Assembly: GCA_023105745.1 (NCBI GenBank)
Contig: JALGQZ010000007.1
Span: forward strand, 56,029,569-56,093,568
DNA: 64,000 nt
Source: Austropuccinia psidii
Lineage: Eukaryota; Basidiomycota; Pucciniomycetes; Pucciniales; Sphaerophragmiaceae
Direction of reading: 5' to 3'
Part shown: positions 1 to 62,152 of the stretch, in pieces
How positions within the stretch are numbered: the stretch's first letter is position 1
Layout of the letters: the number at the start of each line of letters is the position of its first letter
Notes under the pieces: generated by a model
Databases searched by the model: none
What the model was told of the DNA's origin: nothing
The model's input: the letters and a program-made list of their open reading frames with translations, nothing else
Translations under genes and position numbers: made by a program

Positions 1-217
1 ATTTGTACCTGTTTGAGTTACTCATACTTAGTTCCAATTCAGGCTCAGATATCATGGGCATTTCTGGGACTTGCCTTTGGGATAAGGCACTTCCTTGTGT
101 GGATTCTGTTCCACTGGGGATATTGCCCTTTCTTTTCCCTTTTGAGGGATCAATTCTACTTCTGAGTCCAGCTCCATCTGATTGGATGGAGTATTGGGAA
201 CCTCTTCTGGTAGTCAT
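1..217 (-). CDS. gag N-terminus (partial), El-1
   Basis: Gag reading frame beginning at ATG 217-215 and open to the window edge (72 codons). It starts MTTRRGSQYSIQ, matching the other gag starts here ([10 protein letters not shown] in El-10, MVHTRNGSSY in El-9, MTPTRSGSNY in El-13). This ATG was chosen because it is conserved in position and because only one other ATG occurs in the roughly 720-nt leader. The fourth codon (AGA) supplies the acceptor AG used by the overlapping spliced ORF. Structural protein of the virus-like particle by family; the capsid and zinc-knuckle parts lie outside the window. Confidence 0.75.
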   Translation of the reverse strand, partial: MTTRRGSQYSIQSDGAGLRSRIDPSKGKRKGNIPSGTESTQGSALSQRQVPEMPMISEPELELSMSNSNRYK

Positions 218-443
218 AATTTAAAGAATAAGAAAAAATAAAAGTATTTCAGAATAAAATTCTTTTTATGGCAATTTAAAAAGAGGTGCTCACCTTCAGA
301 GTCTTGAATGGTGGGCCCTGGAAAGTCTAATTTCTTAGCTTTCTTTCTTTTGGTGATAACTGGTGTAGGAGAACTTTGAAAAGTTTCTTCCACCAATCTC
401 TCAACAGTAGCTTGGTTGTCTTCTGTTGGGTTATCTTCAAACA
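1..443 (-). CDS. Spliced overlapping accessory ORF (exons 2, 3, start of 4), El-1
   Basis: Exon 2 is 443-294 (150 nt, after TTTTTTAG, begins TG). Intron 2 is 293-207 (87 nt, GTGAGC...ACCAG) and contains the gag ATG. Exon 3 is 206-75 (132 nt). Intron 3 is 74-9 (66 nt) with a GC donor (AAAG|GCAAGT) and acceptor ACAG; exon 4 starts at 8. Without intron 3 a TGA at 54-52 would end the frame. The peptide is +1 to gag. Exon 3 carries TPSNQMELDSEVEL, like TPSNKMDLDQEIL in El-13. Function unknown. The prediction rests on the same exon layout in six elements, not on RNA data. Confidence 0.6.
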
Positions 444-7279: not shown

Positions 7280-8132
7280 CCCAGTCAAAGGTCTGGAATA
7301 GTGGGGTATATTTGAATTTGTCTCATAAGCATGTTATGTATTTGATTCAAATCTTCAGTGATTTCTTCTTTAAATTTCTCTCTTACTTTATCACTTTCCT
7401 CTAAGTGTTCAGTAAAGGGACTTGTGTTACAATCTGTGTGACTTTCTATATTCAGAAAATGATTTCAAATAAACAAATTGATCATTAATATGATTAAACA
7501 GGTTATTTCCCAAATAATGAGGTTTTTCTTCTAGAGTTGTTATTTTATGTTCAATTATGTAACATTTATGTGGAACGGACTCAATTATTACAGTTTTTAC
7601 TCTATCACATTGAGTGTAAACTGTGAGATTTCTTCTTAATTTACTAGTATTGGACATTGATTTCTTCAACATTTCATCCAGATTCTCAAGTTTGAACTCA
7701 ATAGCAGAATATATATGTTTAATTTTAGGATTAATATTTGTGGAAAGGTCCTTTTTATCCTTCCCTGCTCCTTGCCTGTGAGCTCCATAAGAGTTCTGCA
7801 AATTTCAAACACATATTCCATGGATGATGACTCCAATCTGCAAATTGGTACCAGTTTCCTTTTTCCTTCCCCTTTATTCTGGTTTGGCACCTTTATAATT
7901 GTTTTTGAGGCCCCTTGGGTTTGTGTTTCGGGATTTCTAGGGCTTGCTTTCAAGTTTTCAATGCTACAGCTCCTTTTTTCTCCAAAGATGAGGTCATTTC
8001 TAATTCTTTCTTTTGGTCCACTAACAAATAACTTTGGATTTTGAGAAATATCTTCAATTTGTTCAATCTATCTTTAAAAGACATGGAGATATAACATCCC
8101 AAGAGCTCTATAGTATTCTCCTGATTTGTCAG
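7280..8132 (-). pseudogene. gag and overlapping accessory ORF remnant (El-4, distal part)
   Basis: Minus-strand continuation of the El-4 gag that begins near 19880, separated from it by El-5/El-6. The gag frame (7801-7427) is K/E/N-rich and probably coiled coil. The +1 accessory frame is visible at 8150-7950 and, after a frameshift, at 7953-7666. It keeps the C-terminal signature (MEYVFEICRTLMELTGKE) and the basic patch NQNKGEGKRK, both seen in El-10 and El-13. The +1 relationship between the two frames is the same as in the intact elements. Confidence 0.6.
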
Positions 8133-9640: not shown

Positions 9641-10237
9641 TTTTGGGGGCCTGGCCATGTTTTAAATCTTTTTTTGGACCTTATAAGTAAGTCTTTTCTC
9701 TCTTTATGACTTATTAACCAGTGTTTTATCTTTTTTTTAGGCGTAATTTCTCTATTTAAAAATATATTTTATATATATTTATCTTTCTTTATATATATAC
9801 TCATATTATAAGAGTATTTTTCACGTGGCTAATACCCACTGAATAAAACTATTTTTGGCGTGTTTTGTATATAAAAACACATAAGCCATCAATAAGTCCT
9901 GTATTCTTGACTGAATGAGGACACCTCTGACTGAAAAACCATCAGTTGAGGCGTGGATTAAGTGTATTGTTAACTCAATAACACTTATAAAAAAACCACT
10001 TGTACAGAATACAATTGAAAACCACAAGTGTATCTGTGGGATACTGGCACACAAACAGTGTGACAGGGTACCAAAAGCTGTAATTCTGACGTGGAATTGT
10101 TGATTCAATTACACTGTCATTATACAGGGCACATTGTAGTAACATACAAACCCAGAGGCCAATCTTAGATGTGCAAAACCAGCATTTTTAAGAAGTCTTA
10201 ACTGACATAAGTCCTCCCTTTTCTGCCTTGATTTCAG
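9641..10237 (+). promoter_or_regulatory. Primer-binding site and leader/intron 1 of El-6
   Basis: TTTTGGGGGCCTGGCCATG follows the LTR at 9641-9659. A strong donor TTATAA|GTAAGT lies at 9686/9687 and the acceptor GATTTCAG ends at 10237, giving a candidate 551-nt intron. Unlike El-10 and El-13 this leader contains several ATGs. The intron is inferred from the shared TTATAA|GT and AG|TG signals only. Confidence 0.5.
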
Positions 10238-11306
10238 TGGAAGAAAATTATATCCCACTTGAGACCCAGTCACAGGCCAACACACCAGTGACACCCTCAG
10301 AACCAGAGGGCAGCAAGGGCAAAGGAAAGAGGCACAGTGAAGGTCTCATCACAGCCAAGAAGTGGACACCAATAGCCACTCAGAGAAGTAGAAAACCATG
10401 AAACTCTGCATCCATACAAGGTAAACCAACCTTAACCACTTGTACAGGAAAGATTACAATTATTAACCCAGTTGTAACTTCCAAAGGCAAACTGCCCAAG
10501 TCAGCAGACAATAAATTTGTACAAGGAACAGTCAAAGGTAAATACCCTAAGAAAATAAAGTTTTTGACTGCTTGCAAACACTGATATGTCCCCTGTATAC
10601 CTCAGAGACCTTGGCTTCCAAAGGAACCAACCAGAGGATAGAGGAGGATTGTCCAGAACCAGAAGACCTGAAAGAGGACACCCTGGACACAGTGGTGGAT
10701 GGCAAAACAATGAGGGAGATAATATCAACCCTGCCATTCACACTCCAATTCAACAGAAACCTCAAACCAGAGGACTGGAAGGATATAGATCAAGTTCTTC
10801 AGATCGACCAACTCCTCAAAGATTTATTTCAATGGAGCATGGACAACAAGAGGTTCAACCTAGCAACTCACTGGGCAGAACTGGGATCAAGTTGCCAGAA
10901 GATATGTCTCAAAGAGATAGACTTCAAAGACCTTATGGTAATCACCAAGGGTTGGAATCCTACCAGGCAGCACAGACTCCTGGAGGCAAGGGCACAGAGG
11001 ATAAGGGAGAATCAAGCCACTATCCTAGCTATAGAAGAACAGTTGACCCAGACAGGGCCTACTCAGATTCCTTCAGGTTCACAAGGAGCAGGCCAAATCA
11101 ACTCTCCAGTGGCTTCACACCATTCAGAAACCAGCAGATCAGTGGCCAAGAGTCACCATTCTTCACAATTCCAGGAAGTTTCCAGGAGAATACAAGGAAA
11201 CAAGGGCAAGAACAAAACCTCCTTCAACCAGAGGAGGAAAGAATCAGACCCCATGATCCAGAAGCTGTTAGATTTGGTAAAGGAAGTACACAAGAACCAG
11301 AAGTAG
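10238..11306 (+). pseudogene. Spliced overlapping accessory ORF of El-6 (one stop in exon 2)
   Basis: Exon 2 is 10238-10537 (300 nt, begins TG after CAG, acidic/serine-rich then lysine-rich). Intron 2 is 10538-10605 (68 nt, GTAAAT...CTCAG) and contains the gag ATG. Exon 3 is 10606-11306, open for 232 codons in the +1 frame over gag, ending TAG. Splicing joins the frames exactly. The product has KGWNP (compare KGWTP in El-13), a basic patch NKGKNK and a short lysine-rich C-terminus. A TGA at 10399-10401 interrupts exon 2 in this copy. Exon 3 alone has no ATG at its start, which argues for expression by splicing. Function unknown. Confidence 0.55.
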
Positions 11307-33467: not shown

Positions 33468-33961
33468 TGTGAGCCTTGAGGTATATTTTACATACCCAAA
33501 TAGACCACAATAACCTTAAAAATACCTTCTGAACTATGCATAACCCATAAGTCATGCATATATTCAAAAATCATCATTTTTGATTTCATAAAAGATGGAT
33601 AGCTTTTTATTGGGTAAGTAACTCCATGTATTTAAGACCAGATTTGGATTCCACACAAAATTCCACCTAGGGTAGCTCCATAGAGTGAATAACCTTAAAT
33701 GCACTCTTTGAGGTGGTATTATGGAAAATACTTCAATACCAAATCATCAATACCACATAAAAGATCCATTAAAAGTTTTGTTTTTCTCAATTTCACAACC
33801 AAATTGATGGGAATGTGAGAAATCCCATGCTACATATACACTAAGAATAGTGTTATGCATGTTTTTGGCACTTAATATTATGGTATCCTTACATACAATT
33901 TTGGTACACCAATAATGGATATCTCACTTGAAGCCTGAATTTCTATTTTGACATAAAAAAT
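33468..33961 (+). repeat. El-9 5' LTR, left piece
   Basis: TGTGAGCCTTGAGGTATATTT onward. Inverted match to 2946-3206 and to the El-4 LTR. Ends at the El-10 target copy AAAAT (33957-33961). Confidence 0.75.
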
Positions 33962-35776
33962 TGTAAGGTGTGGATATGAAACTTTGATTAAAAATCAAGT
34001 ACTTTTCCTGTCCTCAAAATTTGTATAAGGTAAAAATCAATTAAAAATAGTATGAAATATTATTTTTAAGAGAAAACACGCCAATTTTATTGTTTATAAC
34101 TTTATTAGTATAAAACAATAATATTATAAAAATTTATTGTTTTACAAACAATAAAAATTTATCCAAAAAATACTCTACAAGAGATATTTTAAGGCTACAA
34201 AAGAAATTTCTTCAAGAGCAATTTCAATTGGAATTAATTGAGCAAAGAACTGCAAGCAATTAATTAAAGAACAAAGTCTTTAAAAAGAATATTAAAGAGA
34301 AAACACGCCCAAAAGTGACCAGAGTGAATTTGGAAACAAAGTGACAAAGTTTACAGTGATGAAAGATGCTTTAATTCACTTTTGGGGTGGTTCGGGGGTA
34401 AAATGATTATAAGAGTTACAAACAATGATTATAATGATTTTCTCACGTGGTTAAAAGGATTAAAATGATTTAAAAGTGGTGGTTGGAATCTTTGATTGAT
34501 TGGTTTAACAGTTTTAAACTAATTAATAAAAGGAAAAGATTCTAACATGAAGAGAAAAGTGGGGCAAAGAAGACATTCTTTTATAGCCATCAATTCTCTT
34601 ACTCCAAAAGTAAAATTTACTCTTGTTAGTCGTGAAAAACAGTCTGACAACAGAAAAGCCAATTATGGCATCATTGAACCCTGGTTTAGACCAAAAAGGG
34701 CTGGTTTAAGCCATTTTTAGCCATTTTTAGCCATTTTAGACCCTTAAATCAGCCATTACTATAACAATACCAGGCCTAGAGCCCTCAAAACACGTCAGAA
34801 TGTGTTTCAGAGACGTAGAAACCAGTTAAAACTGTTTTTACTATGATGGTTTTATCTTAAGGGTAGTTTTACCCTCTTGGCAACAGCTAAAACTACCCCA
34901 GTTGGTATCAAAACCTCATCATCAATTGAGTCCACAGACCCTGTAACTCAATTCCAGGCCAAAAGTGATGAACTTTTGCGTGAATTTTGACATCCCACGC
35001 CTGTCAGCAAGGATTTTGGGGGTCTAGCTCCCCCTTAGAGCTGGAGTTCCTTTTCCCCCCCAAATTTAATCTTTCCAATTTATTTTTCCTTTAATTCCTC
35101 ATCATGTATTATACTTATAATTTACATATGTAATTCAATTCAATTGTACAGTACAATACAGTAATAATTGACACCTCATATGTAAATCAAAGTTCACTTA
35201 TGTAATACACGCGCACATTTTGACATTTCAATTGAATTCAATTGAAAATACTTCAATTCCTCATAACTTCTAAACTAAACACAACACCTCAATTTTAACA
35301 CAAAAATTGATGGTTAACACCACATGTGGTGTGAATTAAATTAAGTTTTTGAGGATTTTCAACTTTTGTATTGAAAATACTAAAAACTTAATTTAAGCTT
35401 ATTTAGAGTTGAGTTACAAGAATTTCACTCAGAGGTGACCCCACCTGATTTTTTATGAGGAATCCAATGGTGAAATAAATTTTATATGTTTATTTATTGG
35501 ATAAAAAGTTATAATAAATTTTATTTAACTTTTTTCCAAATTTATTTATTTTTTCACAATTTTGTTAAAATTTCATTTTTACTTAATTTTTTTTAAGTAT
35601 AAATGTAATTTTATATTTACAAAATTTAATGTATTTTTATTTTTAAATTATAATTAATTTTTTTTATTTTTTATTTTTATTTTAATAATATAAATAAATT
35701 TATTTTATTTATATTAATATGTTATTTTTTATATTTGTGGTCTTTTGGGTATGTGAAATTACCTCTAAGGCTCACA
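33962..35776 (-). repeat. 3' LTR of El-10 (1815 bp)
   Basis: TGTAAGGTGTGG...AAGGCTCACA in plus orientation. The adjacent TTCCCTCCCTCTAAAAAAA (35777-35795) is the polypurine tract read in reverse. Confidence 0.95.
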
Positions 35777-35800: not shown

Positions 35801-38800
35801 TTACTTTGTAATATTGGTGTTTCTAGTGTGTCTGAATCTCCTCAGGAGTTTGGTAGCTTCTGGTATATCTTTTTCTTCTAACCATTCATCTTCACAAGTT
35901 GGGTCACTGTACCTAAAAAGGTATTCCCTTACTTTCTTGGTTCTTAATTTCCTTTCTTTAAGAACTTTGGTTATTTTCTTAGTACCAGATGTCTAAATAG
36001 GAGGTATAACTTGGGGAACCTTATTCGTCAAGGGAAATTTCTCAGCATCACTAGATTTGTATGGTTTTATCAAGCTCACTGGAAATGTAGGGTGCTTATT
36101 GCTAAGTTCTTCAGATAACTCTACTTCAACAGCATTTTCTCCATGGAGGGCCTTAATCACAAAAGGTCCTGCAAAGGAGTCTTTCAACTTTTTACATCCT
36201 TTGATGTTATTGAAGTTAGTGGTGGATACAAGAACTAGGTCCCCCACTTTGAAATCTGGAGTTGCATGAGATTTATCCCATTTGTCTTTAGCATATGCAA
36301 AAGAGTCCTCCATGAATCTTACTGCATGCTTTCTAGCTTTGTCTAGCATACCTTTGAAGCTAGCAGCTGTGGGATGTATCTCAATTAAGTCTTTCCTCAA
36401 GGAGTCTTGGGGTAACTTGGGGTTCCATCCTTTTTCTAGAATAGCAGGAGTCTGATTGGTACTAGCATGGATTGATGTTTTATATGCTAATTCCAGTGCT
36501 GGTAACAGAGTACACCAATCATGGGTAAATTCATCACAATCTTTGAATTCAAGGCCATATGCACAAAATCTTCTCACCATGTCCTCTAAGGTTTGGATCA
36601 TTCTTTCAGCCAGGCCATCAGTTTGTGGGTGGTAGGCTGTAGAGAAAGACAGTTTAGTGCCAAATAATTGGTGAAGATTTGTCCATAGTGCTGAAGTGAA
36701 TTTGGGATCTCTATCACTGATGATATTTGTAAATATCCCAGTCCATGATACTACTCTATTCCATATCAGAAGAGCTGTATCCATGGCTGTATCATCTTTG
36801 TGACATGGTAAAAAGATTGGAGTTTTACTGAATCTGTCCACAATTACTAGGCAAGCATTATAGCTCCTGTCACCTCCTGGTGGTAGGCCAGTTACCCAAT
36901 CCATATGGATAATTTCCCAAGGTCTGTTTGGTTCTTGGACTTTCATCATATTTCCAAGTCTTTTGCCAGTGGATTTATTTGCCTTTTGGCATCTGTCACA
37001 GGTTTTGCAATACTCTGCAACATCTTTTTGCCACATTGGCCACCATATGCAGGTCTTCACTTTCTCTCTTGTTCTGTCTTCAGAAAGATGTCCTGAAAAG
37101 GGACTATCATGGCATTCTTTCAGTACAAGATTGATTAATGACCTGTCTACAACTGTCATGACACATGTGTGCTTGGTTCTGTGGTAAATTATACCATCCA
37201 GTAGGTGAAATCTTCCTTCATTATAAGATTTTCTCCATACTTCGTCCAAGGCATGTATTAGAGAGTTGTCTTTACAGTCTTTGTTAAGTAATTGGCATAA
37301 GATGCTACAATTCTTATCTTGAGTGTAACTATTTCTGACTTCTTCAAAGAAGGTGGTGTTCAAGTCTGTAACACTTATTCCTTCTATTGGAATTTGTGGT
37401 GAAGCTTCTTCTGGAACATAAGCAGGATTATCAATGTTATTTGGTAATGGCCATCTGCTTAGTCCATCTGCATTCTTATGAATATTCCCATCCTTATGAA
37501 CAATAGTCATATTGCCACTGTATTCTTGTATGGCTATTTGCCATCTGAGCATGTGTCTGTTAGGTGTTTTCATGTTCAAAAGTGATTTCACAGCTGTACA
37601 ATCTGTTATTACTTCAAAAACACATCCCTCTAAGAAATAGTTCAATTTCTCCAAGGCCCAGACAAGGCATAGACATTCCATTTGACTTGCTCCATATCTG
37701 GCTTCAGTTGGTTTGATTTGCCTGGATATGAAACATATTGGTCCTTCTACAGGTTTGTCATTTATGATCTGAACTTGGTGAAGTGCAGCACCTAGTCCAT
37801 CCCCTGATGCATAAATATACAGTTTGAAAGGCAATTTAAAGTCTGGCATCAGTAAGAGTGGAGCAGTGGTCAATGCTTCTCTTAGAGATTCAAAAGCTTT
37901 GACTCTGTCAACAGTCATCTCAAATACTGTGTCTTTGTCACACAACTTATAAAGTGGTCTTGCTATGGATGCAAAGTCTTTAATGTGTTGCCTGTAATAT
38001 CCTGCAAAACCTAAGAATGACTGAATTTCCTTCTTATTCTGAGGCATGGGTTTTAACAATACTGCTGCAACTTTGTTTTTATCAATTCCAAGGGACAAAC
38101 CAGATACAACATGTCCTAGTGCCTTAAGTTCTTTAAATCCAAAATGACATTTCTTCAAGGAGATTTTCATGTTTACTGATTGGATTTTTGTCAAAACTCT
38201 TGATAATCTGTACATGTGCTCCTCCCAAGTCTTTGAACAGATAATAATGTCATCAATGTAAATGATTAACCATCCCTCTGAGAGTTCTTCAGGGAAGATT
38301 TCATTCATCATTCTTTGGAAGTGTGAAGGTGCATTTTTGATACCAAAGGGCATCCTTAAGTATTCATACACTCCACAATGAACAATAATTCTCAAGTATT
38401 TTCTTGCTCTTGGTGTTACCACATTTTGATGGAATCCTTTAAGGGCATCCATAGTGGTTATATACACTGCTTGAGATATTTGAGTAAGGGCAATTTGGAT
38501 TTTTGGTATTGGGTATCTGTCTGGAACAGTGTAAGTGTTCAGAGCTCTAAAGTCCCCAACCATTCTGGATTTTCCATTATGCCACGCCACTATGACTGGT
38601 GTAGTTATTTCTACTTCCTCATTGTGGCATACTTTTCTTATTACACCAAGGTCTAGAAGTTCTTTGATATGAATTTCTAGAGCTTCTCTTGATTTTGCAC
38701 TTGCTGGATAAGCAGGTCTTCTTAAGAGTGGTGGATAAGGTCTCTCAATGTTAAGAATGATGTCAACTTCATGACCAATAATTGCTCCCAGAGGTTCTTT

Positions 38801-41725
38801 GTCTGTAGCAAATGCTCCTTTGTGGTCATACAAAAGGAAAGAAAGTTCATTTTCTTGTTTATCAGTCAGATGAAGGCTTATCTAAGCCTCATTTAACTGT
38901 TCAGACTTGAATTTTTCTAACTCTAAGTTGACTGGTGATACTTTGTTTACTGTAATTTGTCTTTTAAATGGTAAAAAGGCAAATTTCTGGCGCTTATTGT
39001 CCCCAATTGTAAAGTATCTGTCTTTGTTATTATGTAAATCTATCCCATACATGATCAAATAGTCATTTCCCAATATAAAATGGGTACTAGAGCAATTTTC
39101 CATAACAACAAATTCAACTGTGATCCTTAAATTCCCATTTATGTGTGGGAATATGACATTGGTCTCAAAGATTCCCAATGCTTTCATTGGGTTACTTGCA
39201 CTGTTGAATTTTATACCATCAATTGGTAACAATTGGTCTTCAAAATTTGGCACACAAGTCTTAAGAAAGGATTTTCCAACACAAGAGCAGAAGGCTCCTG
39301 GGTCAAGTAAAAGTTTGGTGGGCTTGTTGTCAATCACCACTTCTGTTATACAGGAGTTACCAGCTGTATAACCTTTTCCTCTGTTTGGTTTTGTCTTCAT
39401 AAGTTGTGCATCTTGAACTTTTGATAAATCAACTTGACCATTGCTCAATTGTGGTAAGTGGGAATAAGATTCCATGATGTCAAAAGTGGAATTGATATTT
39501 TCTATATCTTTTGAAGATTTAGAATATATGGATGACTTATCATCTGAATTGTCTTCAATTATGTCTTCTTTTTCAACATCTGGTTCCTTTTCAATGTCAA
39601 TTTCATTGATTTTCCCCCTCTTTGGACATGTATTGGCTAAATGGGTGGTGCTTTGGCAAATATGGCATTTTCTGACTGTATCTGCAGATTTATATCTAAT
39701 ATTACTAGAATTTTCTTTGGGGTTTTTGTCCACAGAATCTTTCCAAGGTGTATTAAACCTTGTTTTAAGATTCACCCTACTAGAACCAATTTTTGTTCTG
39801 GTGGTTACTTCTTCTAGTATATTGATGATATCCTCTGCTGAAGATTGTTCAGTAGTCCTGCTTTTGACAGCATGCTCTAAGTCACCCCCACATTGTCTCA
39901 GAATTTTTCTATGGATCATAAATTCTGACATGTCAGGATATAATGCTGTTAATCTGTCCTTCTGTTGGCAAAACCATGGTAAAGCTTTGTCTTTATCAGC
40001 ATTAAATTTGGCAGATTCAAAGGCTGTTTCAACTTTAAGCCTCCAAGCATCATTTGCCCATTTGTTGATGATTTGGGTTTTCCACCAAGTCCAACTCTGG
40101 TGTCCATGTGCTTGTCTTATTTTGATGTACAATCTGTGAGCTGATCTGGTAAACAAGGTGTTAAACCTGGCTGTTACCAATCTTTCTGGTAATTCAAAAT
40201 CCTCTTTGATCATGTCAATACCTCTAATGAATTCCATATGGTCATACTCTCCTTCACCACTGAAGTGGGGCCATTCTTTAAGTTTTGGCACTTCTTTCAA
40301 GAGTGCTTGGCCCATTGATGGTTCCAAGTTATGAAAAGAAGTGGATAACTCATTTTTTAATTGTGAATTATCAGGATCCAATACTTGTGGATTTGAAATT
40401 CTTGTGCCCTCATTTTGATTTAGAGGTGTAGACATTCTTGGTAAGGTGTTCAGTATTTGTTCAATGTCATTCATTTTACTGTTGCTACACCTTTGGGAAT
40501 TTCTGTATTCATGTTGGAAGCTTTGTATTAAATTTATTACTTCAATTTTATACATGTCTTCTTTATGTGTAAGTTCTTGCCATAACTCTGTCTGTCTTGT
40601 ATTATCAGCAGTGACTTGATTCAATTTCATTGATAATTTTGATACTTCTTCTTGTGAAGCATCAAAACACTTTTTCAAGGCAATGGTATATGTCTTTACT
40701 TCAGTAAATGAATTTGAAATGTCATCAAGGACATTCTTGTTATCTGTCTTGATAATATTTATGGCTTGTTTAATTCTTGTTTCAATTATGTCATCAATAT
40801 TGAATTTAGAATATTTATCTGTTAATTCTTTAATAATGGCAGATTGTTCATTTATTTTATTGTTAGAAGAATTATCATTATTGGAGTTTTTAATTGTTCT
40901 CAAAACTTTTTCAAAACACATAAGTGTTTCATTAATTTGGCACAGACTCAGGTTGTTTGTTTTAATGTTGTTACAAATGGTTTCATTTTTATCAGAAAGA
41001 TGTTTTTTCATGTCATTTATAGCATTATACAACTCTGGGATGGAATCAAATATGTCAGAAATCATTTCTGGAACCTTAATCTGGCTTCCTCCTTCTTCTG
41101 TAATTCCATCATGGTTCTGGCCATCTGAAATACATTTTCCATGGCATCCTGCTGAATCTTTGGGATTATGTAGCCCTGGCTGTAAGGTTTTGGGGCTGGT
41201 GCCTTCCCTTTGCCCTTGTTTGGAGTTTGTGGCTGCTTTTTCACGTTGGAATTGCTGCTGCTGGCCACTGGGGCTGTTTTTGGCACTGGTTTGGCTGGTG
41301 GAGGGTTGTTTTTCCTCCATTCTAGTGTCAAAAGCATCATGTTTTTCTTCTCCATCAATGGATGCCATCCATTGAGCAATTTGCAAGTGTTGGGATGGCC
41401 CAAGAATTTTCTTACTGTCAGGTAAGAATTCATGCAATTCTTCCACAGGTCTGCAAGGATCTGGTACTCCTTGAATTGAAGTGCATTGTTGTATGCACTG
41501 TGGCTGGCTTTGTATATGTCCACAGAGGCTTGTTGTGGCGGTGTCAGCTCTTTTTGAAGGTAAAATAGTATTATCAGCTTCAGAATGACCCAATTTAGTT
41601 GTTTGGAAGTCATCAACTGACCCTTTTCCTTCTGTACCTGGTTGGCTTCTGCCATAATCACGTCTATTACCTTTGTGGGAGCTGCTTGAGGGGTTGTAGC
41701 TGGCTCCTGACCTGGTTGAAGGCAT
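35801..41725 (-). CDS. gag-pro-pol polyprotein of El-10, one frame with two amber codons
   Basis: ATG 41725 ([10 protein letters not shown]) opens a frame of 1974 codons to TAA 35803-35801, interrupted only by TAG at 38884-38882 (between protease and RT) and TAG at 35995-35993 (before the tail). Approximate residues: low-complexity N-terminus overlapping the accessory ORF 1-220; coiled coil 230-420; capsid-like 470-650; zinc knuckle [14 protein letters not shown] about 690; protease [10 protein letters not shown] about 805 (DPG instead of DSG/DTG); [11 protein letters not shown] about 1157; RNase H about 1303 with LYIYASGDG where relatives have LYID; integrase HHCC about 1540-1580, DDE motifs ([24 protein letters not shown]) to about 1710; chromodomain-like tail 1912-1970 (KVLKERK...YLFRYSDP). 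Stops may be decay or readthrough. Confidence 0.88.
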
Positions 41726-41973
41726 AATTATGGTTAAAAAAGGCTTAAAATAGTATTTTTACGTCAAAAACTTACTATTGGCCAAATTTTTAGCTTTCTG
41801 AAGGGTATTACTTATGTCCAAGTTAATCAATTCAGAAGATATTGGTTCAGGCTGGTTCTTTTGAGTCACAATAACAGTACTATTATGATCAGAATTAACA
41901 GTACTGGCAGGGATAATGCTGGTTACTGTTGAGGCTGTTTCAATGTTTTCTTGTCTTACCACGTTGTCAGACA
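41062..41973 (-). CDS. Spliced overlapping accessory ORF of El-10, about 282 aa
   Basis: Exon 2 is 41973-41776 (198 nt; after ATTTTAG, begins TG; ends A). Intron 2 is 41775-41712 (64 nt, GTAAGT...TCAACCAG) and contains the gag ATG. Exon 3 is 41711-41062 in the +1 frame over gag, ending in a stop at 41062-41064. If exon 1 ends in A at 42050 (TTATAA|GTGAGG), the AUG is made by splicing and the frame is uninterrupted. The protein is S/T/N-rich and acidic at first. It then has [12 protein letters not shown] and LLNGWHPL, a K/P/Q-rich linker with a basic patch ([12 protein letters not shown]), and a C-terminal helix ([19 protein letters not shown]). No known domain recognised; the basic patch suggests nucleic-acid binding or nuclear entry. 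Never opens with its own ATG in unspliced RNA. Confidence 0.65.
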
Positions 41974-42197
41974 CTAAAATTAATGAAAAAGCCAATTAAT
42001 TAAGTAAAAAAAGGTTATTTCAAAAAAGAAATAAAAATATAAGCCTCACTTATAATATGAAAAAAAGTTATTTTTTATGGATTTTTTGAATTATAAGTAT
42101 TTTTTATATGTTTTTAAATTTTTCAATATAAGAAAAAAGATTTAAAAAGAGTAAAAAAAATATGTCACAGGTAAAATATCACGGCTGGGCCCCCAAA
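41974..42197 (-). promoter_or_regulatory. Leader, primer-binding site and intron 1 of El-10
   Basis: Primer-binding site 42197-42179 (TTTGGGGGCCCAGCCGTGA). Candidate exon 1 ends at 42050 (CATATTATAA) with donor GTGAGG; intron 1 is 42049-41974 (76 nt) ending ATTTTAG. I see no ATG from the primer-binding site to the gag ATG at 41725, about 470 nt of very AT-rich sequence. Confidence 0.6.
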
Positions 42198-44012
42198 TGT
42201 AAGGTGTGGATATGAAACTTTGATTAAAAATCAAGTACTTTTCCTGTCCTCATAATTTGTATAAGGTAAAAATTAATTAAAAATAGTATGAAATATTATT
42301 TTTAAGAGAAAACACGCCAATTTTATTGTTTATAACTTTATTAGTATAAAACAATAATATTATAAAAATTTATTGTTTTACCAACAATAAAAATTTATCC
42401 AAAAAATACTCTACAAGAGATATTTTAAGGCTACAAAAGAAATTTCTTCAAGAGCAATTTCAATTGGAATTAATTGAGCAAAGAACTGCAAGCAATTAAT
42501 TAAAGAACAAAGTCTTTAAAAAGAATATTAAAGAGAAAACACACCCAAAAGTGACCAGAGTGAATTTGGAAACAAAGTGACAAAGTTTACAGTGATGAAA
42601 GATGCTTTAATTCACTTTTGGGGTGGTTCAGGGGTAAAATGATTATAAGAGTTACAAACAATGATTATAATGATGTTTTCACGTGGTTAAAAGGATTAAA
42701 ATGATTTAAAAGTGGTGGTTGGAATCTTTGATTGATTGGTTTAACAGTTTTAAACTAATTAATAAAAGGAAAAGATTCTAACATGAAGAGAAAAGTGGGG
42801 CAAAGAAGACATTCTTTTATAGCCATCAATTCTCTTACTCCAAAAGTAAAATTTACTCTTGTTAGTCGTGAAAAACAGTCTGACAACAGAAAAGCCAATT
42901 ATGGCATCATTGAACCCTGGTTTAGACCAAAAAGGGCTGGTTTAAGCCATTTTTAGCCATTTTTAGCCATTTTAGACCCTTAAATCAGCCATTACTATAA
43001 CAATACCAGGCCTAGAGCCCTCAAAACACGTCAGAATGTGTTTCAGAGACGTAGAAACCAGTTAAAACTGTTTTTACTATGATGGTTTTATCTTAAGGGT
43101 AGTTTTACCCTCTTGGCAACAGCTAAAACTACCCCAGTTGGTATCAAAACCTCATCATCAATTGAGTCCACAGACCCTGTAACTCAATTCCAGGCCAAAA
43201 GTGATGAATTTTTGCGTGAATTTTGACATCCCATGCCTGTCAGCAAGGAATTTGGGGGTCTAGCTCCCCCTTAGAGCTGGAGTTCCTTTCCCCCCCCAAA
43301 TTTAATCTTTCCAATTTATTTTTCCTTTAATTCCTCATCATGTATTATACTTATAATTTACATATGTAATTCAATTCAATTGTACAGTACAATACAGTAA
43401 TAGTTGACACCTCATATGTAAATCAAAGTTCACTTATGTAATACACGCGCACATTTTGACATTTCAATTGAATTCAATTGAAAATACTTCAATTCCTCAT
43501 AACTTCTAAACTAAACACAACACCTCAATTTTAACACAAAAATTGATGGTTAACACCACATGTGGTGTGAATTAAATTAAGGTTTTGAGGATTTTCAACT
43601 TTTGTATTGAAAATACTAAAAACTTAATTTAAGCTTATTTAGAGTTGAGTTACAAGAATTTCACTCAGAGGTGACCCCACCTGATTTTTTATGAGGAATC
43701 CAATGGTGAAATAAATTTTATATGTTTATTTATTGGATAAAAAGTTATAATAAATTTTACTTAACTTTTTTCCAAATTTATTTATTTTTTCACAATTTTG
43801 TTAAAATTTCATTTTTACTTAATTTTTTTTAAGTATAAATGTAATTTTATATTTACAAAATTTAATGTATTTTTATTTTTAAATTATAATTAATTTTTTT
43901 TATTTTTTATTTTTATTTTAATAATATAAATAAATTTATTTTATTTATATTAATATGTTATTTTTTATATTTGTGGTCTTTTGGGTATGTGAAATTACCT
44001 CTAAGGCTCACA
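42198..44012 (-). repeat. 5' LTR of El-10 (1815 bp)
   Basis: Same ends and length as 33962-35776. It contains TTGTTGGTAA (minus strand, about 42390-42370), a donor-like word also present in the El-1 and El-12 LTRs. Confidence 0.95.
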
Positions 44013-47486: not shown

Positions 47487-48337
47487 AAACTTATAAAATT
47501 ATTCTTTGAGTTAGTCTGAATTAATTTTGATTCAAAATCTTAAGTTTTGAATTTTTTCTTAAAAAAGAATAATTTTTTTAATATTAAAAAAAATAAAAAC
47601 TTTTAAAAAATCTTAAAAATATTTTAAAAATTATAAAATATAATTTTCTTTTACCAAATTTTTTCTCTAGTGCCTTTAATCAAGTATATTTCAGCTGGTA
47701 ATAAGCTCAGTAAGAGATATATTACCAGTCCAGAATCTGCATACAAAGAATCTGAAGACAGTATTGAAGTGCAAATCGCTAAAAGAGGCACTTTATTAAA
47801 AACAGAAAAAGCCAAATAGCCACTAAAAGGTTTGTGTTTTCAGTTTTCAATCTTATTTTTCTCTTGAATTGACATGAAAAATGGTGCATACCAGAAATGG
47901 AAGCAGTTATGTAGTCCAAAAATATGGAGCTGGACAAGGAAGAGGTAAGACCAGAACAAGGTCTTCCAAGTCTTCCTCAAGAAAGACACATCTGGAGGAT
48001 GCCAGAACTGCCCCCCATTCCCCAAGGTCTGTACCATCAAAATTTGATGTGAACTCCAAGCCTGAACTAATTGAAGGTAGTGTTTTAACGCCTGAGCCAC
48101 TTCCAAGTGGCAGCCATAGAAATATATCAGTCCCAATACAAAAAATGGTTCAGAGAAGCAAACAAAAGGAGTGTGAAATATGCCCAAGCCTTTTGCGGGG
48201 GGCCATGAACTCCTACTTACACATCAAGAGCTTTCTGGGTCAGGTGAATACCATAGGGCTCTTATGATGGTGAAGCCCCTTGTCTTGCAAAGACAAGGTA
48301 AAAAGATAAAGAATCGGTTGAAGAACCAAAGTCTTTT
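47487..48337 (+). pseudogene. El-9 leader end, accessory exons and gag N-terminus
   Basis: Acceptor TTCTCTAG, exon 2 47671-47829 (159 nt, begins TG; TAG at 47817), intron 2 47830-47894 (65 nt, GTTTGT...TACCAG), gag ATG 47881 (MVHTRNGSSYVVQ), exon 3 47895-48026 (132 nt), intron-3 donor GTCTGT at 48027 but acceptor AAG changed to AAC at 48089. Exon 3 read +1 gives WRMPELPPIPQG, matching WRMPELPPVPKG of El-13. A 1-nt deletion near 48145 fuses the gag frame into the accessory frame (SLLRGAMNSYLHIKSFLG, compare SVWIGTMNSHLQVKKLMG). Truncated by El-12. Confidence 0.65.
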
Positions 48338-59200: not shown

Positions 59201-61986
59201 TGTCCACTTCATGGCCTTTTATAGCCCCTAGTGGTTCATTATCTGAAGCAAAGGCTTCTCTGCATTGAAAGAAAATTTTAATCAGTTCTTCCTTCATTTC
59301 TAGTGTTAATTCAGGACTAATTTGTGCTTCAATCAATTGACTTGACACAAATTTTTCCTTATCAACATTTTTCACTTGTTTAATGACAGTAATTTCTATT
59401 TTTTCTAGAGGAAAAGCAAATTTTTGACTTTTATTTTCTCCTATAGTGAAATACCTGTCTTTATGATTATTAATATCAATACCATAAATATTGAGATAAT
59501 CATTCCCAAATATAAAGTGTTGTGAGGTACAATTATTCATGACAACAATTCCAACTTTCAGTCTTATAGTTCCTGCAGGATGAGGAAATATGATGGCTGA
59601 TTCAAATATACCCAAGGGGTGCATATTTTGGCTAGCACTGCTGAATGTTATACCTTCAATTGGCATTAATTTTTCTTGCCAATTGGTATAAACCTTGTCA
59701 AGATAATCCTTTCCAACACAATTGCAAAAAGCACCTGAGTCAAGGTGTATCTTGGCTTCTGTGTTGTTTATCACAATATTAGTTATACAAGATGAACCAG
59801 CTGCATAACCTTTACCTCTGGCAGGTTTGGTTTTCTGCATTTTAGCATCTTGCACATGTATGAGATCCATACATTCATCACTATACTGTGGTAAATGAGT
59901 GTGTACCTCAGTGACTTCAAAAGAAACATTAATGTTTTCTATACTAAGCTTCTCTGGTACTTCTTCTTCTTCTGAAGGCTCAGAATCACTTTCATGTAAA
60001 GATACATCAGTTGGTTCTTTTGTGTCTTCCACTTTTTCAACATTTATCTCATTGATTCTTGTATTTTTTGGACAAGTGTTAGCTAAATGAGATGTACTTC
60101 CACATTCGTGACATTTCAAAGGAAGTCTGTCTTGTGGCGTACTTGGCTTTGAAATTGGTTTCCCATTAGTCTTATTGTCTATTGGGGATTTAAACCAATT
60201 TCTTCCAAACTTTGTTCTAGTAGTGATGTACTCCATAGAGTTGATATAATCTTCTGTAGAGAAAGGCTCAATAAATCTGCTTCTTATAGCATGCTCAAGG
60301 TCACCACCACACTTTCTTAATATCCTTTCATGTACCATTGTTTCAGACATATCAGGATGAAGGTCAGTTAATCTGTCCTTCTGTTTAAGAAACCAAGACA
60401 TGGGCCTGTCCCTCTCAATATTAAAAGTGGCTTCTTCAAAAGGATTTTCCATTCTAAATCTCCAGGAATCATTACCCCATTTAGAAATAATTTGTTCTTT
60501 CCACCAAGGCCGAGAATGTTTACCATGGTCTTGTGTCATTTTGTAATACCATTTCTTTGCTGATCTGGTAAATAATGAGTGTAATCTGGCACTTATGTAT
60601 TCATCTGGTATGTTAAAGTCTTCTTTGAAAATATCAATTGTTTTCATAAATTACATATGATTATATTCTCCTTCACCATTGAAGGTTGGCCATTCCTCTA
60701 ATTTTAGAATGTCTTTGAAATTGCAAGCAGTTTCCACCTCATTACTTGAAATGGTATGATGTAAATCATTAAGCACATTTCTGTCAGGAATTGGTGTGGA
60801 TTGCCTTGGCAATTTATTTTTGAGTGATATATTATTAATACTTGATTGAATGTCTTCTTTCAATTAAAGTCTTGCTTTATCACCTTTCTCCAATTGTTCT
60901 TGGAAAAGAGTTGCATTTTGACCAGTTGAATTTTAAGTTTTGAACTTGTAATTTCAATTCTCTTAACTTTCCAGTTATAAAAGAAATTGAATTGTCATCT
61001 GGTTGATTGAGCAAAGTAACTTTAGACTCAATTCTTGCACAAATTTGCGTCAAAGACACAATATTGTCTTTATTAACATTTTCAAGGCCAATAATCATCT
61101 TTTTTTGTTCTTTCACTTGATATATCTCATTACCCAACGTTTCTTGGATATACTCAAATGTTTTAAGCTTTGTTATAATTTATTTATTACAAGATTCAAA
61201 TTGAGTTACAAGTTTAAAAAGATCCATTTCTTTGGGAAAGATTGGCTCAATCTTTCCTCCTCCTTGTTTTTGAATTCCATCAGAGTTCTTGCCATGTTGA
61301 ACACATTGTCCATGGCTGTCTTTTCTTTCTTTGGGATTCTGCAATTCTGCGGGTAAGGCTTGTTCAATTTGGGCTTTTCCTTTCCCTTCTGGTTGGTCTT
61401 TTGGGCTTGCTCGGGCTTTCTTGGCACTTGTTGAGGCGAATTTTTGCTGGTGGATGCTTGGGGAGCTTCCATTGGGCTGTTTTCCTTGCCTTGGGCCAAC
61501 TTCTTCTTGTGATCCTCTGATAACATGCTTTGGTTTTTCAACCAAGCTTTTATCTGTTGGACTTGTCCTTTGCAAGACATTGGTGTCCAACCCTTCAGAA
61601 GATATTCTGTCTTTTCTGGCCCCATGAGCTTCTTCACTTGAAGATGAGAGTTCATGGTGCCTATCCAAACACTTGGGAGAAGTTCCCACTCTTGCTGTTT
61701 GGTGGCCATAAACCAGTTCTTGTACTGAGACTGGTAAATCTCCACTGCTACCTGTTGGAAATGATTCAGGTCTAACAGCAATAGCAGTTATGTCAGCTTC
61801 TGGACTCTCAATAAGAGGTTCAAAGGTTCTGGCTAACCTTTGGGAACTGGTGGAAGTTCTGGCATCCTCCATTTGTGCCTCTCCTCTGGGCTGACATTCT
61901 TGGCTTTTTGATTTGTGACTAGAATTTCCTGGTCCAGATCCATTTTATTGGATGGAGTAATTACTTCCACTTCTAGTAGGAGTCAT
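56247..61986 (-). pseudogene. gag-pro-pol of El-13 (frameshifts and stops)
   Basis: From gag ATG 61986 (MTPTRSGSNYSIQ then TAA) to a stop at 56249-56247. Recognisable in order: gag N-terminus (61872-61180 open), coiled coil (61137-60880), capsid-like region, zinc knuckle CHECGSTSHLANTC near 60110, protease HLDSGAFCN near 59745, [11 protein letters not shown] near 58700, RNase [15 protein letters not shown] near 58250, integrase with ISDRDPKF and TDGLAERK near 57170-57050, tail (YLVRYKNPQHEDKW) near 56370. Several stops and length changes break the frame (5740 nt in total, not a multiple of three). Catalytic motifs are closer to consensus than in El-10, but the frame is dead. Confidence 0.85.
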
Positions 61987-62152
61987 TGCACGTCAATTTC
62001 AAGAAAAAAATAGACTAAGAATGTATTGAATTCACCTGCTGGACCTTTAAAGGGTTCTTTGGTTATCAAACCCCTTGGTGCTGGGCTGGTTTGAATTTCA
62101 ATACTAGACTCTGAGGCTTCAGAGTCTGAAGAGCTGTCTCTAATTGATGACA
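61206..62152 (-). CDS. Four-exon overlapping accessory ORF of El-13, uninterrupted, about 272 aa
   Basis: Exon 2 is 62152-62036 (117 nt, begins TG after TTCTATAG). Intron 2 is 62035-61973 (63 nt, GTGAAT...CTACTAG, contains the gag ATG). Exon 3 is 61972-61838 (135 nt). Intron 3 is 61837-61772 (66 nt, GTTAGC...CTGTTAG, with CTGAC/TAACTG branch-like words). Exon 4 is 61771-61206. Removing intron 3 deletes both stops in the raw frame (a TAG and a TAA) and keeps phase. Features: serine/acidic start, WRMPELPP, EIYQSQYKNWF, MNSHLQVKKLMG, LLKGWTPM, basic patch NQKGKEKPK, C-terminal MDNVFNMARTLMEFKNKEEE. It stays open although gag in the same DNA has a stop at codon 14. No known family recognised. Confidence 0.65.

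Follow-up and report, generated by a model that had tools for sequence, protein, structure and literature searches.

Structure of the El-10 locus

We analysed a 64-kb stretch of Austropuccinia psidii DNA (the window, to whose positions all coordinates refer) and describe here a Ty3/gypsy retrotransposon, El-10, in which a second gene, apparently laid out for splicing, overlaps the 5´ part of gag in the +1 frame. Self-comparison of the window places El-10 on the minus strand between long terminal repeats (LTRs) at 44012-42195 and 35776-33959. The 5´ LTR as aligned (42195..44012, minus strand) is 99.2% identical to its partner (33959-35776) over 1818 bp, a near-identical pair as is characteristic of Ty3/gypsy LTR retrotransposons. 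The gag gene (38882..41725, minus strand) encodes 947 amino acids including a putative protease region and ends with an in-frame stop before pol (35993..38881, minus strand), which is read in the same frame. Pfam assigns to pol the domains RVT_1 (residues 102-258), RT_RNaseH (347-454), integrase H2C2 (578-636) and rve (652-752), that is, the order of reverse transcriptase, RNase H and integrase found in Ty3/gypsy elements.

A predicted spliced gene in the +1 frame

The second gene occupies the leader and the 5´ end of gag, with all its parts on the minus strand. The last base of the leader exon, an A at 42050, is followed by predicted intron 1 (41974..42049, 76 nucleotides, GTGAGG...TTTTAG), exon 1 (41776..41973, 198 nucleotides, beginning TG TCT GAC), predicted intron 2 (41712..41775, 64 nucleotides, GTAAGT...CAACCAG, with a branch-like TTAAC 26 nucleotides before its end) and exon 2 (41062..41711), which overlaps gag codons 5-222 and ends with the stop TGA at 41064-41062. 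Because removal of intron 1 would put the A at 42050 next to the TG at 41973, the start codon is presumably built by splicing (A|TG). Exon 1 is open and joins the +1 frame in phase across intron 2, giving a product of 282 amino acids from the split start. The gag ATG (41725), which is the first ATG after the LTR in unspliced El-10 RNA, lies inside intron 2. Its A stands 14 nucleotides from the last base of the intron, both counted, and the acceptor AG falls within gag codon 5.

Much of this had been proposed in a first-pass annotation of the window, and we arrived at the same structure when we re-derived it from the sequence: the intron 41775-41712 (GTAAGT...ACCAG), the exon 41973-41776, the +1 frame up to the stop, and the gag ATG inside the intron with the acceptor in the fifth gag codon. 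Its junction 42050|41973 and its product length hold as well. The split start codon is our addition.

The stretch between the primer site and the acceptor of intron 1 in El-10 contains only one AGT, the sole candidate for an A|GT donor. Branch-like motifs (CTRAY, TTAAC or TTGAC) were found 24-28 nucleotides before the intron end in five of the six introns checked. A possible third intron (41550..41621, GTCAGT...CAAAAAG, CTGAT 28 nucleotides before its end) measures 72 nucleotides, a multiple of three, and is open in both frames. Its counterpart in El-13 carries +1-frame stops, so the intron is probably optional in El-10 and the product may have 258 amino acids.

A primer-binding-site-like sequence, TGGGGGCCCAGCCGTGAT, occupies the LTR edge (42178..42195, minus strand). 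Similar motifs occur in the element El-4 (9642) and in an element cut by the left edge of the window (939); the motif common to the three LTR edges is TTTGGGGGCC, which has no tRNA match. Between the primer site and the gag ATG, the El-10 leader (41726..42194, minus strand) has no ATG in 469 nucleotides, compared with a mean of 6.08 in dinucleotide shuffles, none of 2000 of which reached zero. This count starts at the primer site; the actual start of transcription may lie elsewhere, and the last 400 nucleotides of the LTR hold one ATG. The same shuffling gave 0 ATG in 711 nucleotides against 8.9 expected for the leader of the element El-13 (0/2000) and 5 in 943 against 14.8 expected for El-4 (2/2000). 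Counted without shuffles, the leaders of the left-edge element and of a decayed copy near 47.5 kb contain one ATG each, in 720 and 398 nucleotides. Leaders free of or poor in ATG fit a scanning mode of translation, in which gag is read from unspliced RNA and the new A|UG is met first on spliced RNA.

Three minor features were seen in these regions. The ATG of the El-10 LTR just mentioned (42253, minus strand, near the 3´ end of the LTR) opens an upstream reading frame of 9 codons, MRTGKVLDF; the decayed copy has the corresponding frame without the ATG. At 9657 in El-4, the GCCGTG of the primer site of other elements reads GCCATG, as decay of CpG would give, and this adds an ATG to the leader. 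Soon after its primer site, the El-4 leader also has a further intron-like stretch of 54 nucleotides (9687-9740, GTAAGT...TTATTAAC...TTTTTTTTAG).

Recurrence of the layout

The same layout recurs in four further elements of the window: El-13, El-4, the left-edge element and the decayed copy. In all five elements, exon 1 starts after an acceptor of the form AG|TG, the gag ATG lies inside the next predicted intron, and the AG of that intron falls in an AGA or AGG arginine codon of gag (codon 4, 5 or 7). All five likewise keep a gag ATG with a purine at -3. Of the other elements that the first-pass annotation had named as sharing the layout, El-4 and El-13 stand; El-6 and El-9 could not be matched to places.

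The El-13 gene (61206..62152, minus strand) consists of exons 62152-62036, 61972-61838 and 61771-61206. Its predicted introns are 62035-61973, which holds the gag ATG (61986), and 61837-61772 (66 nucleotides), which holds +1-frame stops, so that the joined frame of 272 amino acids from the split A|TG is open only with this third intron removed. In El-4 (10238..11306, plus strand), exon 10238-10537 is followed by intron 10538-10605 with the gag ATG at 10586 and by exon 10606-11306. The left-edge element (75..443, minus strand) retains exons 443-294 and 206-75, separated by intron 293-207 (gag ATG 217). It has a GC donor at the place of intron 3, and the window ends before any acceptor could be assigned. 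The decayed copy (47671..48264, plus strand) begins exon 1 at 47671 after TAG|TG, has its gag ATG at 47881 and carries +1-frame stops at the place of intron 3.

Constraint on the +1 frame

One explanation would be that the +1 frame is open only through the composition of gag and that the introns are chance GT..AG pairs in AT-rich DNA. For El-10 this is not absurd: its +1 frame has no stop, where synonymous resampling of gag gives 2.8 on average, and 626/20,000 resamples were equally open. In El-4, which also has no stop, the mean is 5.7 and only 7/20,000 resamples were as open. One layout in five elements, and a conservation of the +1 frame across families that has its own third-position signature, speak further against such a by-product, which we consider hardly credible.

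This conservation is best seen between El-10 and El-13. Their +1 proteins match in tblastn at an E-value of 1.1e-24 with 36% identity, and the family profiles match each other at E=8.9e-33. Over 159 ungapped codons, the two elements share 61 residues (38%) when read in the +1 frame and 30 (19%) when read as gag. The same codons differ at 68, 59 and 106 nucleotides in positions 1, 2 and 3 of the +1 codons, that is, the third-position excess of a coding gene follows the +1 frame. In the control, gag outside the overlap of the same two elements, the signature is reversed and follows gag (166, 120 and 264 of 481 at gag positions 1, 2 and 3). In the overlap, the log-likelihood favours the +1 frame over the gag frame by 24.7. 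Among El-13, the decayed copy and the left-edge element, the exon 2 counts for the three positions (13/10/18 of 39, 12/12/13 of 32 and 15/13/18 of 27) are too few to decide.

Codons were also resampled with one frame fixed. With both gag proteins fixed, the observed +1 identity was reached in 0/4000 resamples; with the +1 proteins fixed, the gag-frame identity was reached in 3033/4000 and the gag-frame BLOSUM score in 6/4000. In the overlap, gag thus exceeds expectation by BLOSUM score and does not by identity. The codon-position contrast is the stronger test, because resampling takes no account of shared ancestry that persists at silent sites. From the identity of the +1 proteins together with the peak of substitutions at the third position, it follows that the overlap evolves as a +1-frame gene. 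As read from this substitution pattern in the comparison of El-10 with El-13, selection acts on the +1 product at the level of the protein. Since the +1 frame is the dominant constraint in the compared overlap, the N-terminal ~220 residues of Gag have the appearance of a passenger. The first-pass annotation had suggested a retrovirus-like accessory gene in a fungal Ty3/gypsy lineage. What can be retained of it is a coding gene that overlaps gag in +1 and is laid out for splicing in several Ty3/gypsy families of one fungus; to this we add that the dominant constraint in the compared overlap belongs to the +1 frame and not to gag.

An alternative is that the spliced RNA is bicistronic. It would yield the +1 protein first and then, by re-initiation at the stop of that protein, a shortened Gag without the overlapping part; the stop, AAATGATT, forms an ATGA together with a Met codon of the gag frame near codon 220. 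El-10 does have this overlap of stop and start, and by identity no separate constraint on gag is seen within the overlap. There is no ATGA at the El-13 stop, however, and translation continues beyond this point in some A. psidii MF-1 gene models (P0001 and P0018, for example). The gag ATG with its purine at -3, kept in 5/5 elements, and the BLOSUM score, which so few resamples reached, also speak against it. We therefore hold this arrangement to be very improbable.

Gene models of A. psidii MF-1

Relatives of the +1 proteins were sought in protein databases at E<=0.001, and we consider the best 120 of the 545 matches to El-10, of the 367 to El-13 and of the 906 to El-4. Among these, 359/360 are named hypothetical proteins (O181_*) of A. 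psidii MF-1, and P0205 has no name. Judged by sequence similarity, the O181_* hypothetical proteins in GenBank and UniProt are this +1 protein family, annotated as anonymous genes. A search for relatives among viral contigs gave 107 pattern matches, none of which was a relative.

Of the best 120 El-10-like models, 72 lack the tail of exon 1, two have it without the start of exon 2, and 46 carry both. In 34 of these 46, the exons are joined at the place of intron 2 without change of length. One of the 34, P0040, runs first into the gag frame; it begins MSEN, its Met standing at the place of the split codon. Ten of the best 120 start exactly at the whole codon that follows the split ATG, and the same start is seen in the El-13-like P0124 and P0131 and in the El-4-like P0266, P0315 and P0339, these being 5´-partial models. 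Sorted by pattern at the possible intron 3, the best 120 comprise 20 models that splice it, 26 that retain it and 74 that fit neither.

UniProt gives the name "No apical meristem-associated" to P0012, P0031, P0034, P0036, P0059 and P0113, which could mislead annotation: none of eight MF-1 relatives (these six included) matches the Pfam domain of that name up to E=1.

A possible model of the splicing switch

We suggest that splicing decides which of two products is made from one El-10 transcript. The unspliced RNA, with no AUG between primer site and gag, would be translated into Gag(-Pol) and would serve as the genome. Splicing of intron 1 would assemble an A|UG start upstream of gag. Splicing of intron 2 would delete the gag AUG and join the frames, and the spliced RNA would thus make the +1 protein instead. 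On the evidence of layout, conservation and gene models, the introns are very probably spliced in vivo, and a switch between two products of one transcript is probable, somewhat less so than the splicing as such. We are reasonably confident in anatomy and switch taken together, leaving the role of the protein aside. That the layout recurs in five elements is observed directly.

A number of points weigh against this reading. The gene is known here from DNA sequence and gene models, and the MF-1 models are the output of a gene finder, possibly without guidance by RNA. Twelve of the 46 listed models with both exons join them otherwise (P0003 retains the intron and 11 differ), and P0046 is joined differently, starting at the gag ATG and crossing into the +1 frame. 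Intron 1 of El-10 has no branch motif of the CTRAY, TTAAC or TTGAC kinds sought; its donor is the only candidate in El-10, and there are 9 candidates in El-13, 3 in the left-edge element and 11 in El-4. The copies are damaged. A stop separates gag from pol in El-10, codon 14 of gag is a stop in El-13, exon 1 of El-4 contains an in-frame stop, and the decayed copy has stops in both exons. For El-10 taken alone, an open +1 frame is weak evidence, being not very unlikely by chance, and the codon-position test compares one pair of elements. The El-4 protein has no detectable homology to the El-10/El-13 family by profile comparison, so that El-4 shares the layout without proven homology of the protein. 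A likeness of the El-4 protein to other +1 proteins noticed by eye (a GWNP motif) found no support in that comparison. The role considered below is drawn by analogy, Pfam, PDB and fold searches having returned no match. Finally, in 4/5 elements (El-10, El-13, the left-edge element and the decayed copy) the second ATG of unspliced RNA belongs to the +1 frame, and because of this position leaky scanning could yield a shortened protein in El-10.

The last point can be extended into an explanation of its own, in which unspliced or partly spliced RNA is the main source of the +1 protein, via the second AUG, and the upstream exon is a mere leader. The second ATG of El-10 has A at -3 and G at +4 and is followed by 197 open codons, and several MF-1 models, e.g. 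P0122 and P0123, start at an internal ATG of exon 2. Elsewhere such a start leads less far. The frame from the second ATG stops after 36 amino acids in El-13 and after 41 in the left-edge element unless the third intron is spliced, and in the decayed copy after 5, or after 42 when a later ATG is used; the second ATG of El-4 belongs to the third frame. Nor does leaky scanning account for AG|TG in 5/5 elements, for the open exon 1 or for its in-phase join. We regard it as an improbable main source of the protein and prefer the splicing switch.

The predicted protein and its possible role

The +1 product of El-10 is predicted to be a helical, Lys-rich protein of 258-282 amino acids. An AlphaFold2 model of the El-13/El-10 protein consists mostly of long helices and includes a flexible stretch rich in Lys and a helix at the C-terminus (mean predicted local distance difference test score 70, predicted template modelling score, pTM, 0.30); another model reached a pTM of 0.27, and both are poor. 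Pfam has no family for the 282-residue protein and gives nothing above cut-off for the eight MF-1 relatives. Two sequence-profile searches of the PDB returned one match at E=0.2 and none, respectively, and Foldseek, run on the low-confidence El-10/El-13 model, found no match at E<=0.001 in PDB or BFVD.

An element that exports intron-retaining RNA would need a cis signal or a trans factor, and the +1 protein could be such a trans factor. By analogy, it might be an accessory regulator of the element's own intron-containing RNA, acting for example in nuclear export like CERV or Rev; we put this forward tentatively, as something short of an even chance, the role being the least certain part of our reading. 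Another possibility is that the spliced gene is real and its product is a partner or inhibitor of Gag in particle assembly, or an anti-silencing protein. A structural or scaffold part would agree with the long helices and with the flexible stretch rich in Lys. Precedent for a regulator made by a fungal element from its GAG region is found in Ty1. The transcript for its p22 and p18 starts inside GAG; they are read in the Gag frame and are not known to involve splicing, and p22 limits copy number. The +1 protein is not in the gag frame. It would resemble p22/p18 in that a fungal LTR element makes a further product, with a regulatory task, out of its gag region (PMC8458377). Nothing specific speaks for or against such a role, to which we would give close to an even chance.

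In its fullest form, our proposal is that a fungal Ty3/gypsy lineage independently evolved a retrovirus-like circuit. Splicing would build the A|UG and delete the gag AUG, and the AUG-free leader would let intron retention alone choose between Gag-Pol plus genome and a nuclear RNA regulator. The frame of the regulator would be the constrained and perhaps the older one, with the N-terminal ~220 residues of Gag overprinted on it. We consider this complete scenario possible but rather unlikely.

Relation to known systems

Extra open reading frames and spliced accessory genes of LTR elements are already known in animals and plants (PMC10309623, PMC7264820). CERV of the C. elegans Ty3/gypsy element Cer1 is an accessory protein of 517 amino acids made from a spliced mRNA whose exon 4 is out of the gag frame, and it acts as trans factor in the export of intron-retaining Cer1 RNA (PMC10309623). 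The El-10 gene would resemble it in being an accessory protein from a spliced Ty3/gypsy mRNA while unspliced RNA makes GAG, and both have no obvious homology outside their lineage and a predicted helical domain. In its logic, the proposed accessory gene comes closest to CERV and to lentiviral Rev. Compared by layout with CERV as described there, the El-10 gene differs in lying wholly in the leader and the gag 5´ end, in its split A|TG start and in the removal of the gag ATG as an intron.

With lentiviral Rev-type genes and the spliced env of retroviruses the El-10 gene would share the principle of alternative products of one LTR-driven RNA (PMC10309623, PMC7264820), and the unspliced form would be both genome and gag-pol mRNA. 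The layout is different, since the El-10 exons are placed upstream of gag and inside it and do not follow pol as a spliced env would. No env was found, and the +1 gene sits in the leader and the gag 5´ end, not between pol and the 3´ LTR. Additional open reading frames of plant LTR retrotransposons, including the spliced env-like gene of Bagy2, are similar as extra conserved frames beside gag-pol, some of them reached via splicing; the word "overlap" is absent from that survey (PMC7264820).

The first-pass annotation knew of no published description. Among titles and abstract beginnings of the open-access literature we likewise found no such gene described in fungi and no case of splicing that both builds the start codon of an accessory gene and removes that of gag, and the passages searched in the rust literature do not mention gag. 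The predicted protein itself is already deposited, as the MF-1 hypothetical proteins described above. Transposable elements, mostly Gypsy, make up >90% of the gigabase genome of A. psidii (PMC8063080). If our assumptions are true, many of these "hypothetical proteins" would have to be reclassified as transposon products, and the export of RNA that keeps its introns, a problem of retroviruses, would be one for fungal Ty3/gypsy elements as well, which may have solved it in a way of their own.

Other features

A CCHC zinc knuckle in El-10 gag is indicated by sub-threshold matches only (residues 685-702, E=0.0011 and 0.37). Gag and pol of El-10 share one frame and are parted by the single in-frame stop at 38884-38882. 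Copies without this stop seem to exist, because the MF-1 model P0065 is continuous through the corresponding stretch. Elsewhere in the window, a fragment at 7669-8067 (minus strand) matches the +1 protein in its C-terminal part (E=3e-4).

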